Shown piece after piece: positions 489 through 38,236 of a stretch of DNA of 38,236 nucleotides (position 1 is the first letter of the stretch; each line of letters begins with the position of its first letter). Both the position numbers and the translations under genes were made by a program. Location of the stretch: contig NZ_BCWP01000033.1 of the NCBI RefSeq assembly GCF_001592265.1, forward strand, positions 1 through 38,236. Reading direction: 5' to 3'. This DNA is from Curvibacter delicatus NBRC 14919. GTDB lineage: Bacteria > Pseudomonadota > Gammaproteobacteria > Burkholderiales > Burkholderiaceae_C. The notes under the pieces were generated by a model. The model was not told where the DNA came from. It did no database searches and saw only the letters and a program-made list of their open reading frames with translations.

Positions 489-1709
489 TCAGGCTGCGTG
501 GCCCAGCCGACGGGCAATCTCGGCCACCAGCTGGCGCGCCAGCGTCAGCTTGTCGGCACGCGGCAGCTCCACCGCCCGGTGTTCGTCCACCAGCAGCAGC
601 GCGTTGTCGTCCTGGCCAAACGTAGCCGGACCGATGTTGCCCACCAGCAGCGGCACGCCCTTGCGCGCACGCTTGACCTGTGCGTTGGCCAGCAAGTCGT
701 GGCTCTCGGCGGCAAAACCGACGCAGTAAAGCGCCCCGCCGCGGGCGCGCTCGCTCTGCGCCACGCCGGCCAGGATGTCGGGGTTCTCGACGAAAGCCAG
801 GGCGGGCGCCTGGCCGGTGCCATCCTTCTTGATCTTCTGCTCGGCCGCACTGGCCGGGCGCCAGTCTGCCACCGCCGCAGTCGCTATAAAAATAGTAGCA
901 TCTGGCGCTTGCTCCATGACGGCTTGATGCATATTTTGTGCAGATTTCACATCGATGCGGCGCACGCCACGCGGCGTGGCCAGATGCACCGGCCCGGCCA
1001 CCAGCGTGACCTCAGCACCAGCCTCGTGCGCCGCACGCGCAATGGCAAAACCCATCTTGCCGCTGGACAGGTTGGTGATGCCGCGCACCGGGTCGATCGC
1101 CTCGTAAGTCGGGCCGGCTGTCACCAGCACGCGCTGGCCGAGCAAGGACTTGGGCTGAAAGAAGGCCACCACCTCTGCCAGCAACTCGTCCGGCTCCAGC
1201 ATGCGGCCGTCGCCCACCTCGCCACAGGCCTGCTCGCCGCTGCCGACGTCGAAGACATGGGCGCCGTCGGCCTTGAGCTGCGCCACATTGCGCTGGGTGG
1301 CCGGATGGGCCCACATCTCGCGGTTCATGGCTGGCGCGATCAGCAGCGGCACTTCGGCGATGGGCCGCGCCAGGCACATCAGGCTCAGCAGCTCGTCAGC
1401 CCGGCCATGCAGCAGCTTGGCCATGAAGTCGGCACTGCAGGGCGCGATCAGGATGGCATCGGCCTCGCGGCTGAGGTTGATGTGCGCCATGTTGTTGGCT
1501 TCGCGCGCATCCCACTGTGAGCCATAGACCGACCGGTTCGAGAGCGCCTGCATCGTCACCGGCGTGATGAACTGGCCGGCGGCCTCGGTCATCACCACCT
1601 GCACCGTAGCGCCTTCCTTGACCAGGGCGCGGCACAGCTCGGCCGCCTTGTAGCAGGCAATGCCGCCCGTGAGCCCCAGGACGATGTGTTTTCCAGCAAG
1701 GTCGTTCAT
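489..1709 (-). CDS. coaBC: Bifunctional phosphopantothenoylcysteine decarboxylase / phosphopantothenate-cysteine ligase
   Basis: Two consecutive steps of coenzyme A synthesis in one 406-residue protein. The N-terminal FMN-dependent CoaC half shows GGIACYKAAEL (15-25), the catalytic-type histidine in AHINLS (H76), PAMNREMW (126-133) and ACGEVGDGRM (161-170). The C-terminal CoaB half shows TAGPTYEAIDPVRGITNLSSGKMG split over 197-220 and AAVADWRP (278-285). The start is set at the ATG at 1709, because the reading frame upstream has no family similarity and a -10-like box lies just before this codon. A low-GC 57-bp repeat (883-939) lies in frame within the CoaB domain, around residues 258-276. 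Confidence 0.96.
   Translation of the reverse strand: MNDLAGKHIVLGLTGGIACYKAAELCRALVKEGATVQVVMTEAAGQFITPVTMQALSNRSVYGSQWDAREANNMAHINLSREADAILIAPCSADFMAKLLHGRADELLSLMCLARPIAEVPLLIAPAMNREMWAHPATQRNVAQLKADGAHVFDVGSGEQACGEVGDGRMLEPDELLAEVVAFFQPKSLLGQRVLVTAGPTYEAIDPVRGITNLSSGKMGFAIARAAHEAGAEVTLVAGPVHLATPRGVRRIDVKSAQNMHQAVMEQAPDATIFIATAAVADWRPASAAEQKIKKDGTGQAPALAFVENPDILAGVAQSERARGGALYCVGFAAESHDLLANAQVKRARKGVPLLVGNIGPATFGQDDNALLLVDEHRAVELPRADKLTLARQLVAEIARRLGHAA
883..939 (+). repeat. 57-bp hairpin-headed intragenic repeat, copy 1 (in coaBC)
   Basis: Aligns without gaps to the copies at 15734-15790 (29/57 identical) and 38008-38064 (27/57). It starts with a 17-nt imperfect inverted repeat, GCTAT...GTAGC. 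The segment AGCATCxGGCGC is shared with the amiC copy. It is clearly AT-richer than the surrounding coaBC sequence but keeps the reading frame; the gene is read from the opposite strand. Confidence 0.6.
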
Positions 1710-1716
1710 GGTCGGC

Positions 1717-1722
1717 AATGTA
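1717..1722 (-). promoter_or_regulatory. -10-like box directly before coaBC (possible leaderless start)
   Basis: Read on the minus strand the hexamer is TACATT, preceded by TG one base upstream (extended -10 form). Seven bases separate it from the coaBC ATG, so transcription would begin at or next to the start codon. No convincing -35 hexamer is visible and no Shine-Dalgarno fits in the gap. Confidence 0.35.
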
Positions 1723-1767
1723 TCAGACGTGGCAAAAGGTGCAGGGCTGGCGAGAGAGACCGGATGA

Positions 1768-3582
<1,815 letters not shown>

Positions 3583-14681: not shown

Positions 14682-15164
14682 GCGTTGATTGTAGAAAGTC
14701 TGGTCTGGCACAGCGAGGCCGACACGGCGCAGTTTGCCACCGCGCTGGCCACCCAGCCGGCGCTGCGCCACGCCTTCATCGAACTGCAGGGCGACCTCGG
14801 TGCCGGCAAGACCACGTTCGTGCGCCACCTGTTGCGCGCGCTGGGCGTGCAAGGCCGCATCAAGAGCCCCACCTATGCCGTGGTCGAACCGCACGAGGCA
14901 CCGGGCCTGGCCATCTGGCATTTCGACTTCTACCGCTTCAGCGACCCGCGCGAATGGGAAGACGCCGGTTTCCGCGACCTCTTCGCCAGCCCCGGCCTCA
15001 AGCTCGCCGAGTGGCCGGAGAAGGCCGCCGCCCTGCTGCCACCGGCGGACCTGGTGATCCAGCTCCAGGTGCAGCCCGATGAATCGCGCCGCGCCACCCT
15101 CACGGCCCAGACGACCACCGGCGCGGCGCTGCTGCAGGGACTGAAGATGGAGATGAAGACTTGA
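14661..15164 (+). CDS. tsaE: tRNA threonylcarbamoyladenosine biosynthesis ATPase TsaE
   Basis: P-loop ATPase that powers the TsaBDE complex in making the t6A modification at position 37 of ANN-decoding tRNAs. The Walker A GDLGAGKTTF, the conserved IKSPTYAVVE and WHFDFYRF segments and the final LAEWPEKA region define the family. There is no ATG before the conserved domain. A TTG at 14661 has AGGGA six bases upstream (14650-14654) and is used here (167 residues); TTG 14685 (159 residues) is the alternative. With the first choice the gene overlaps the queG start by 21 bp on the opposite strand. Its TGA overlaps the TTG of amiC. Confidence 0.92.
   Translation: MSAVERHALIVESLVWHSEADTAQFATALATQPALRHAFIELQGDLGAGKTTFVRHLLRALGVQGRIKSPTYAVVEPHEAPGLAIWHFDFYRFSDPREWEDAGFRDLFASPGLKLAEWPEKAAALLPPADLVIQLQVQPDESRRATLTAQTTTGAALLQGLKMEMKT
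14688..14693 (-). promoter_or_regulatory. -10-like box directly before queG (possible leaderless start)
   Basis: Minus-strand TACAAT, then 6 nt, then the GTG of queG. The box lies inside the first codons of tsaE on the opposite strand. No clear -35. Confidence 0.45.
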
Positions 15165-16540
15165 ATCGGCGCGAGCTGCTGCAATCAGGTACGCTGGTGC
15201 TGCTGCTGGGCACGGCACAGATCGCGCGCGGCGCCACCATTTTGGCGGTGCGCGTCTGGCCGGCGCCCGACTATTCGCGCGTCACCATCGAATCCGACGG
15301 CCACCTCGCCACCAAGCAACTGTTTGTGCCCAGCCCGCCGCGGCTGGCGGTGGACATCGAAGGCATCGAGCTCAACCCGGCGCTGCGCGAGCTGGTGGCC
15401 AAGGTCAAGCCCGACGACCCCAACATCGCGGGCATCCGCGTCGGCCAGTTCGCGCCCAATGTGGTGCGTCTGGTGATCGACCTCAAGCTGCCGATCACGC
15501 CGCAGGTCTTCGCGCTCGACCCGGTGGCCGCCTACCAGCACCGCCTGGTGCTCGATCTCTACCCCACCCAGGCTGCCGACCCGTTGGCGGCGCTGATTGC
15601 CGAACGGCTCAAGGACAAGGAAGCCGCCGCAGCCCCGGCAGCGCCGGCCTCCGCCGCCCGCCCCCACGACCCGCTGGGCGACCTGATCGCACAGCAGACG
15701 CGCAAATCCACCGCACCGGCCAGCCCTGCATCCGCTCCTGTTTCAGGAGCATCGGGCGCAGCAACCACGAGGCCTGAAGGCCAAAATCAGCCCCAAACTT
15801 CCGGCAATGGCAAGACCGAACGCCTGATCATCGTGGCGCTCGATCCCGGCCACGGCGGCGAGGACCCGGGCGCCATCGGCCCCGGCGGCACGCGCGAGAA
15901 GGACGTGGTGCTGCGCCTGGCGCACCGGCTGCGCGAGCGCATCAACGCCACCACCATCAACGGCAACCCGATGCGCGCCTACCTCACGCGCGACGCCGAC
16001 TTCTTCGTGCCGCTGCACGTGCGCGTCAACAAGGCACGCCAGGTGAAGGCCGACCTTTTCATCAGCCTGCATGCCGACGCCTTCTACACGCCACGGCCGC
16101 AGGGCGCCAGTGTCTTTGCGCTGAGCCAGAGCGGCGCCTCCAGCAGTGCGGCGCGCTGGATGGCGGCCAAGGAGAACAAGGCCGATCTGATCGGCGGCCT
16201 CAACGTCAAGGCCAAGGACGCGCATGTGCAGCGCATGCTGTTCGACATGAGCACCACGGCGCAGATCAACGACAGCCTCAAGCTCGGCAACACCATGCTC
16301 AAGGAGATCGGCCGCGTCGGCAAGCTGCACAAGGCGCAGGTGGAGCAGGCCGGCTTTGCCGTGCTCAAGGCGCCCGACATTCCCAGCGTGCTGGTGGAAG
16401 CTGCCTTCATCAGCAACCCGGAAGAAGAGACCAAGCTCAACAGCGACGCCTACCAGGAACAGCTGGCCGATGCGCTGATGCGCAGCATCGAGGGCTACTT
16501 CGCCCGCAACCCGCCGCTGGCACGCAGCCGCAGCGTCTAG
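15161..16540 (+). CDS. amiC: N-acetylmuramoyl-L-alanine amidase, AmiC type
   Basis: Periplasmic zinc amidase that splits septal peptidoglycan during daughter cell separation. 459 residues from a TTG whose first bases overlap the tsaE stop. The N-terminus has a twin-arginine-like export signal (NRRELLQ then a hydrophobic stretch, cleavage near residue 24). An AMIN domain (about 28-130) is followed by a Pro/Ala-rich linker (about 145-220) and an Amidase_3 domain. Zinc-ligand motifs: DPGHGG (H231), TREKD (E246), SLHADA (H304) and the catalytic VEAAFISNPEEE near residue 415. A copy of the 57-bp repeat makes up part of the linker. The tsaE-amiC pair usually continues into mutL; here mutL is 21 kb away. 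Confidence 0.95.
   Translation: MNRRELLQSGTLVLLLGTAQIARGATILAVRVWPAPDYSRVTIESDGHLATKQLFVPSPPRLAVDIEGIELNPALRELVAKVKPDDPNIAGIRVGQFAPNVVRLVIDLKLPITPQVFALDPVAAYQHRLVLDLYPTQAADPLAALIAERLKDKEAAAAPAAPASAARPHDPLGDLIAQQTRKSTAPASPASAPVSGASGAATTRPEGQNQPQTSGNGKTERLIIVALDPGHGGEDPGAIGPGGTREKDVVLRLAHRLRERINATTINGNPMRAYLTRDADFFVPLHVRVNKARQVKADLFISLHADAFYTPRPQGASVFALSQSGASSSAARWMAAKENKADLIGGLNVKAKDAHVQRMLFDMSTTAQINDSLKLGNTMLKEIGRVGKLHKAQVEQAGFAVLKAPDIPSVLVEAAFISNPEEETKLNSDAYQEQLADALMRSIEGYFARNPPLARSRSV
15734..15790 (+). repeat. 57-bp hairpin-headed intragenic repeat, copy 2 (in amiC linker)
   Basis: Begins with a perfect 17-nt hairpin GCTCCTG-TTT-CAGGAGC and ends with CGAGGCCTGAAGGCCAAAAT, almost the same as the end of the mutL copy. 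Ungapped identity is 33/57 to the mutL copy. Both are read in the same frame and encode EGQN near the end. It falls in the poorly constrained linker between the AMIN and amidase domains. Confidence 0.65.
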
Positions 16541-37677: not shown

Positions 37678-38236
37678 GTGAATGCCGTCCCCTCCCCTGC
37701 CCCCCGCCGCCCCATCCGTGAACTGCCCGACGAGCTGATCAGCCAGATCGCCGCCGGCGAAGTGGTGGAGCGGCCGGCCTCGGTGGTGCGCGAACTGGTG
37801 GACAACGCGCTCGATGCCGGTGCCACCCAGATCACGGTACGCCTGCTGGCCGGCGGTGTGCGCCTGATTGCGGTGGAAGACAACGGCTTCGGCATCCTGC
37901 CGGGCGAGTTGCCGATCGCCTTCAAGCGCCACGCCACCAGCAAGATCAGCAACCTGCACGACCTCGAATCGGTCGGCACCATGGGTTTTCGCGGCGAGGC
38001 GCTCGCCGCTATCAATTCGATAGCTGATTGCGCAATATTGTCGAGGGCGGAAGGCCAAAACAATGCTTATCTGCTGGACGGCCGCACCGGCGAGCTGAAA
38101 CCGGTGGCGCGCAGCACCGGCACCACGGTGGAGGTGAAGGAACTGTTCTTCAGCACCCCGGCGCGGCGCAAGTTCCTCAAGACCGACGCCACCGAGCTGG
38201 CGCACTGCATCGAGTCGGTGCGCCGCCACGCACTGG
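37678..38236 (+). CDS. mutL: DNA mismatch repair protein MutL (5' part, runs off the window)
   Basis: First 186 codons from GTG 37678; the rest lies beyond the right edge. GHKL ATPase motifs are in order: [26 protein letters not shown] (motif I, E and N for ATP/Mg, near 24-50), EDNGFGI (motif II, about 67-73), RHATSKI (about 85-91), [10 protein letters not shown] (motif III, about 103-112) and [23 protein letters not shown] (motif IV region, near 148-170). MutL links MutS mismatch recognition to strand removal. A copy of the 57-bp repeat (38008-38064) covers about residues 111-129, just after motif III. Next gene, often miaA, cannot be seen. Confidence 0.96.
38008..38064 (+). repeat. 57-bp hairpin-headed intragenic repeat, copy 3 (in mutL)
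   Basis: Starts with the perfect 17-nt hairpin GCTATC-AATTC-GATAGC, contains TTGCGCA and ends CGAGGGCGGAAGGCCAAAAC. 33/57 identical without gaps to the amiC copy and 27/57 to the coaBC copy. Same reading frame as in amiC. AT content is above the flanking mutL sequence. Confidence 0.65.

Follow-up and report, generated by a model that had tools for sequence, protein, structure and literature searches.

A 57-bp DNA element recurs in three unrelated genes of the window, by which we mean the whole analyzed stretch of 38,236 nucleotides of Curvibacter delicatus NBRC 14919. The segments in amiC, mutL, and coaBC belong to one dispersed family, which is probably a maintained DNA site read by a putative protein. 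As the best reading of the data, at close to an even call, we propose a maintained double-stranded site with a putative trans-acting reader and perhaps an uptake-signal-like drive.

The strongest copy lies on the plus strand of mutL (37678–38235, plus strand, cut by the window end; NCBIfam TIGR00585 above cut-off in the same frame, L023). It spans 38007–38063 by R1 (60.9 bits, E 1e-14 for the window), a structure model built from 18 seeds that were all selected by one exact 3′ arm. As seeds fixed by one arm leave the R1 head unable to show covariation, the sequence-only model R2 was built from 103 genome copies; it places the mutL copy at 38007–38060 (45.5 bits, E 1.2e-13 for the window). The head of this copy is an inverted repeat of the form GCTAY-N7-RTAGC (38008–38024, plus strand). 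mutL is apparently split over the window end and contig C74, and its second part has a copy of its own (L045).

A decayed copy is located in the amiC linker (gene at 15161–16540, plus strand; NCBIfam NF038267, under its curated cut-off). R1 places it at 15733–15789 on the plus strand, R2 detects it at 15755–15787 (E 3.4e-4), and its divergent head inverted repeat occupies 15734–15750 of the same strand. The third and weak copy runs antisense to coaBC (489–1850, minus strand; NCBIfam TIGR00521, above cut-off) and lies at 882–936 on the plus strand by R2 (18.2 bits, E 4e-5); R1 yields a weak match round the same palindromic head at 845–900 on the minus strand. R2 finds all three copies in the window. 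Rfam covariance models at gathering thresholds give 0 matches over its whole length.

The sequence-only reading of this DNA had aligned the amiC and mutL segments over 57 bp without gaps at 33/57 identity and had noted a perfect inverted repeat in each, a common reading frame, and RxEGQN endings. Re-reading of the sequence confirms the coordinates, the identity, and all of these features. When the window is scanned for at least 33 matches to the mutL segment, the forward strand yields 15734 only and the reverse strand nothing; none of 30 simulated windows reaches 33 matches (mean maximum 28.1). By R1 alone, the amiC copy is not significant (7.5 bits, E 1.4). We accept it as real because of the R2 match and because amiC orthologues carry copies in the same register (L076:4545, 33.5 bits; L059:7637, 28.8; L051:5900, 19.0).

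In the 3.76-Mb genome that holds the window (G000), the core GATAGCTGNNTGCGC has 18 exact occurrences and its reversed control 0. R1 detects at least 136 copies at E<1e-3, and all of the 150 scored among 2335 first-look candidates reach E<=1. Chance similarity of two coding segments, toward which the weak R1 score of amiC taken alone would point, is refuted for the family by these counts and retains practically no probability. The earlier claim of a recurrent element common to unrelated genes is borne out by more than 100 further genomic copies. The finding that was to overturn that claim, segments alignable to ordinary codons in orthologues and no further copies, is split: the mutL segment is indeed alignable to ordinary codons, yet the further copies exist. 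For the comparisons among copies below, set A3 comprises 101 distinct G000 copies from 90 of 110 own-genome loci (L189–L208 left out).

Presence of the element is a property of lineages, in which it comes and goes lineage-wide. At E<=1e-5, 83 copies are found in G000, 81 in G003, and 74 in G024, and 22 other congeners searched have 0–3; the complete or few-contig congeners G002, G007, G015, and G018 give no match at this threshold, nor do 16 genomes from other families of the order. Head palindromes number 171–184 in four rich genomes versus 40–56 for the reversed controls, 19–42 versus 28–58 in seven congeners, which thus lie below their own controls, and 2–7 versus 25–49 in four other genomes. 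Across the family, with 18 candidates scored per genome, a copy at E<=1e-6 is present in at least 79 of 299 genomes and at least 42 of 126 genera. The sequence-only reading, which mentioned similar sequences in Comamonadaceae genomes, is right on this point, and the element is widespread in the family. Of the 21 loci with a mutL copy, 16 have further copies in the neighborhood, versus 11 of the 59 loci without one (p 4e-6; locus lengths differ). Matches occur in 3 of 72,556 plasmid records, and one doubtful match occurs in a phage collection of 50,697 records. The Diaphorobacter plasmid NZ_CP049911.1 carries a copy inside cobN (107821–107875) that is 87% identical to the consensus.

Two further observations concern the congeners. 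The four contigs of G015 contain 33 GCTAYN7RTAGC palindromes that look solitary and in many cases have an A-tract as loop (L383–L402); we rejected them as a dialect of the element, as the 20 of 33 heads inspected by eye display no common tail. Moreover, G000 harbors a different repeat of ~100 bp (L213:9887–9996 on contig C24 and L217:11951–12060 on C1), which has many matches in 7 of 8 congeners searched, the best listed being 90–99% identical, including congeners with almost no 57-bp element.

In its best reading, the element has a head in which inverted GCTAY half-sites flank an A-tract, then a further inverted repeat that contains GCGC, and then another A-tract. Heads of the form GCTAY-N7-RTAGC occur 176 times in the genome versus 56 times for the reversed pattern. 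From the differing but perfect stems of amiC and mutL, the sequence-only reading had concluded that pairing is kept while sequence changes, as expected if selection acts on a folded structure, a hairpin of RNA or of a single strand. The innermost head pair of the 101 copies is T/A in 55, a C/A mismatch in 32, T/G in 7, C/G in 6, and a gap in 1. With 32 mismatched heads and 6 compensated ones, preserved pairing is not general and selection on the hairpin head is not supported; the half-sites vary largely independently, and hence the hairpin is not what is kept. Over the whole structure, two-sided changes show a slight excess in favor of a hairpin (37 cells versus 26.2 in shuffles, 4 of 500 as high).

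The A-tracts display a different regularity. At columns 53–54, 34 of the 101 copies read AA and 61 read TT, whereas TA and AT occur twice each (22.8 and 23.1 expected). TA is also absent from loop columns 9–10 (0 versus 12.1 expected), and TpA is scarce in both tracts. On the duplex, AA and TT represent one and the same step, and the pattern is thus compatible with a protein that reads double-stranded DNA. The strongest column dependencies connect neighbors, accompanied by a few weak distant ones. Similarity to the nearest copy is 41.95, compared to 40.4 in column shuffles and 41.53 ± 0.16 in shuffles that keep local blocks and decay (1 of 300 as high), while the ten closest copy pairs are ordinary (118 of 300 shuffles as high), the closest being 47/57 identical. 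Thus, pairwise memory among copies is little, but not none.

Constraint is apparent at orthologous sites. Of 13 loci tested, 9 gave a total of 23 pairs, one of them with an indel; the G000 copies were selected with R1, and the partners in G024, G003, and G041 (mostly 89–93% identical) were located via flanking similarity alone. The mismatch fraction is 0.066 in the 19 high-information columns, 0.163 in the 23 middle ones, and 0.252 in the 15 low ones, with 0.099 in the flanks (high versus low p 3e-13, high versus flanks p 0.02, for pairs that are not independent). High-information positions change about four times slower than low-information ones. The same trend is visible by eye in a more extensive set (38 pairs, 26 loci), in which many partners were also R1-selected. 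The information per copy amounts to ~53 bits, a figure inflated by the selection of copies with R1.

The earlier proposal of insertion into mutL fails: among 80 Comamonadaceae mutL loci, of which all but L066 were measured, 75 of 79 orthologues share 38 residues between two conserved motifs, with the element or without it. The exceptions are L108, L113, and L128 with one residue fewer and L115 with three more. R1 matches this first site in 26 of the 80 loci, in 21 of them with at least 22 bits, and the 17-residue peptide or a near form of it is encoded by one of two codon sets, element-like or GC-rich synonymous. The segment also aligns without a gap to a solved MutL structure. A second mutL site carries the element on the opposite strand within a linker; proteins that lack the element have an alignable motif there, with neighbors of variable length. 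Several genera hold copies at identical mutL locations. A 75-row mutL tree has 11 changes for the strong class, of which starred branches force at least 4; it does not separate gain from loss. The RarA-like gene aligns without gaps to 11 of its 16 element-less relatives, and with gaps to the other 5, which are more distant. For the Nif3-like gene, the alignment to G018 is ungapped, while those to three others have small gaps. Overlay occurs without length change in mutL and the RarA-like gene, and nearly so in the Nif3-like gene.

Other sites behave differently. The LolA-like signal peptide is less clear-cut, as the three relatives that lack the element or resemble it in part differ in the segment: one is ungapped, one lacks a codon, and one is gapped. 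Eight of 12 copies near mutL in relatives lie in loops of AmiC or MiaA-like proteins, with gaps in 26 to 35 of 34–39 alignments; in these variable-length loops, an origin by substitution cannot be claimed. The other four are gap-free, but versus only 1, 2, 2, and 9 relatives, some of them element-bearing. Alignment to solved structures, tried for 8 proteins, places gaps in or beside the segment of GcvP (1 residue), EarP (4), and PurL, Lpd, DapF, and YihE (more); Cca has no match to solved structures at 1e-20. Finally, the intergenic copy L217:4092 has exactly 54 nt extra versus five of five element-less congeners, and its region is of equal length in three element-bearing congeners. Overlay and added length both occur.

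A home-made codon-usage gene finder places 60 of the A3 copies between genes, 35 in predicted coding sequence, and 6 at edges. Coding copies favor a single frame, on the same strand in 11 of 12 cases and on the opposite strand in 17 of 23. The earlier view that the element is tolerated in frame within genes is right. Among the 57 intergenic copies with genes on both sides, 44 are flanked by co-oriented, 10 by convergent, and 3 by divergent genes. NCBIfam identifies as hosts mutL (two copies), comEC, purL, gcvP, cca, dapF, lpxK, earP, folC, and gluQRS, as well as lpxB with a match just under cut-off; further hosts, which we take to be rarA, lolA, lolB, miaA, and nif3, were recognized from sequence. 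G000 encodes ComEC, and the N-terminal part of comEC holds a copy (L179:3001–3057). In a LolB-like lipoprotein (L003:1486–1560), the lipobox codons seem to be supplied by the element. We claim no bias toward genome-maintenance hosts, as in DUS: mutL and the RarA-like gene are hosts, yet other genes harbor the majority of the 35 coding copies. The spacing of copies is more regular than random placement gives (coefficient of variation 0.76 versus 0.95 ± 0.09, p 0.007), with 6 gaps below 3 kb versus 13.3 expected (p 0.011). This test covers 111 of 144 positions, namely those on 24 long contigs, with a random model that ignores avoidance of genes; the smallest distance among the 144 positions is ~390 bp.

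Fragments of the element have been printed before. In its motif section, a 2017 paper (PMC5217627) gives ATAGCT(N)22CAAAAG with 125 copies in Polaromonas naphthalenivorans CJ2 and GCTTAT(N)5AAGCG with 114 copies in Acidovorax ebreus TPSY, listed there separately as ‘potential novel motifs’ with no function given, mostly intergenic and in some cases within genes. The spacings of the two pairs equal element columns 14–19/42–47 and 26–31/37–41; that section leaves the pairs unjoined and treats neither coding overlay nor evolution (PMC5217627). As the single copy L408 contains both printed pairs together with the GGCCAATTTG end, the two motifs fit as parts of one element. In the 299 family genomes, ATAGCT(N)22CAAAAG occurs at most 12 times per genome and at least four times in nine genomes, the reversed control also giving single matches (maximum 2); the printed 125 copies are not reproduced. 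A literature search for the literal core GATAGCTGCTTGCGC found no paper. Searches on uptake sequences in Comamonadaceae, Burkholderiales (judged by the titles listed), and Polaromonas, where the 2017 paper was the one match, yielded no uptake experiment, receptor, or competence data.

The body arms differ between genera, with GCGCTT..AAGCGC in most, GCCC..AAGGGC in G220, and GCCCAGG..CCTGGGC in G313. Pairing of the body inverted repeat is 0.659 versus 0.616 ± 0.015 in shuffles (6 of 1000 as high) in 75 of 130 listed matches, which were picked by eye with unrelated-looking ones and some similar ones omitted and therefore lean to recognizable copies. These data weakly suggest that the body changes on both sides between genera, in the manner of genus ‘dialects’.

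How far do other explanations account for these observations? The body pairing and the slight excess of two-sided changes would suit a selected hairpin, but the mismatched heads, the interchange of AA and TT, which suits double-stranded DNA, and the presence of copies in both orientations relative to genes make this very unlikely. An old non-autonomous mobile element, MITE-like or similar to Rickettsia palindromic elements, which inserted both between genes and in frame and is now immobile and partly decayed, would explain the clean step at L217:4092, the gapped loops and linkers of AmiC and MiaA-like proteins, the gaps versus solved DapF, YihE, PurL, EarP, and Lpd, the intergenic enrichment, and the small residual similarity among copies. 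We nevertheless regard it as unlikely in view of the length-neutral overlays in mutL and the RarA-like gene, the constraint at sites, the AA/TT rule, the even spacing, and closest copy pairs that are no closer than in block shuffles. The mobility proposed by the sequence-only reading is not supported, given the little pairwise copy memory and the near absence from plasmid and phage records, but the 54-nt intergenic step speaks for it.

Constraint, A-tracts, even spacing, the shared mutL locations in several genera, and the scarcity of copies between divergent genes would equally be expected of a functional chromosomal site, for example for a nucleoid protein or a chromosome-organizing protein, that is selected at each location. 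Such separate selection on 57 bp at more than 100 places would be costly, it has no known reader, and the four complete or few-contig congeners have no match at E<=1e-5; we likewise see little likelihood in this explanation.

The maintained duplex site accommodates the overlay without length change, the constraint at the compared sites, the even spacing, and the lineage-wide presence and absence. In its favor we also count the 136 copies at E<1e-3, the AA/TT rule, the genus dialects of the body, and a ComEC whose own gene hosts a copy. According to this proposal, copies in conserved coding regions would arise by substitution over roughly suitable existing sequence rather than by insertion, and would then be maintained at their sites, where a putative trans-acting protein would read the duplex. 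As a driver, we would guess at an uptake that prefers DNA with the element and feeds homologous recombination, in the manner of Haemophilus USS and Neisseria DUS; the uptake step is possible but doubtful. Against the maintained site stand the step at L217:4092, which point substitution does not give, the gapped alignments in variable-length loops, the small residual similarity of copies, the weak dependence of some non-adjacent columns, and the seven congeners with heads under their own reversed controls. The uptake step is further opposed by an information content far above that of known uptake sequences, even if inflated, and by a copy number of ~150, far below the ~1300 printed for H. influenzae USS (PMC5217627). 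On the origin of such sequences, USS are described as evolving by point mutation, not being inserted, and spreading relatively evenly under molecular drive (PMC7811141), while new DUS are argued to come from recombination, not point mutation (PMC2397512).

The element shares with USS and DUS its dispersal in both orientations and its relatively even spacing, but it is far longer and far rarer and has one clean intergenic length step. AT tracts and genus dialects are known from USS and DUS as well. As it lacks the short core and high copy number, we say that the element may work like these sequences, not that it is one of them. Rickettsia palindromic elements, which are insertions of 100–150 bp read in frame within unrelated proteins, resemble it as palindromic repeats in such proteins; unlike them, it leaves the length of mutL unchanged, although other loops show gaps. 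REP/RAYT systems comprise a GTAG tag and a palindrome along with a RAYT gene. The Beta-proteobacterial repeat element BRE is likewise dispersed in Comamonadaceae with some copies within genes, but its size, GC content, and array form (~90 bp, 69% GC in Bordetella, often tandem; PMC3110155) differ from those of the present element, which has 57 bp, a mean of 48% GC, and a smallest distance of ~390 bp among the 144 positions.

It is a speculation, and on balance a doubtful one, that Comamonadaceae might run an unrecognized uptake-signal-like system, in which a 57-bp two-palindrome motif with genus dialects would spread by molecular drive and change codons, and some residues, in core genes such as mutL and comEC. 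If the element were an uptake signal, none would to our knowledge have been known before it except in Neisseriaceae and Pasteurellaceae, and it would greatly exceed the signals of both families in length. For comparative genomics, the family carries a warning that peptides common to unrelated proteins, here RxEGQN, can reflect constraint at the DNA level. A long DNA signature written over conserved coding sequence, including that of the mismatch-repair gene mutL, and present also in the competence gene comEC, represents an unusual force on protein evolution.
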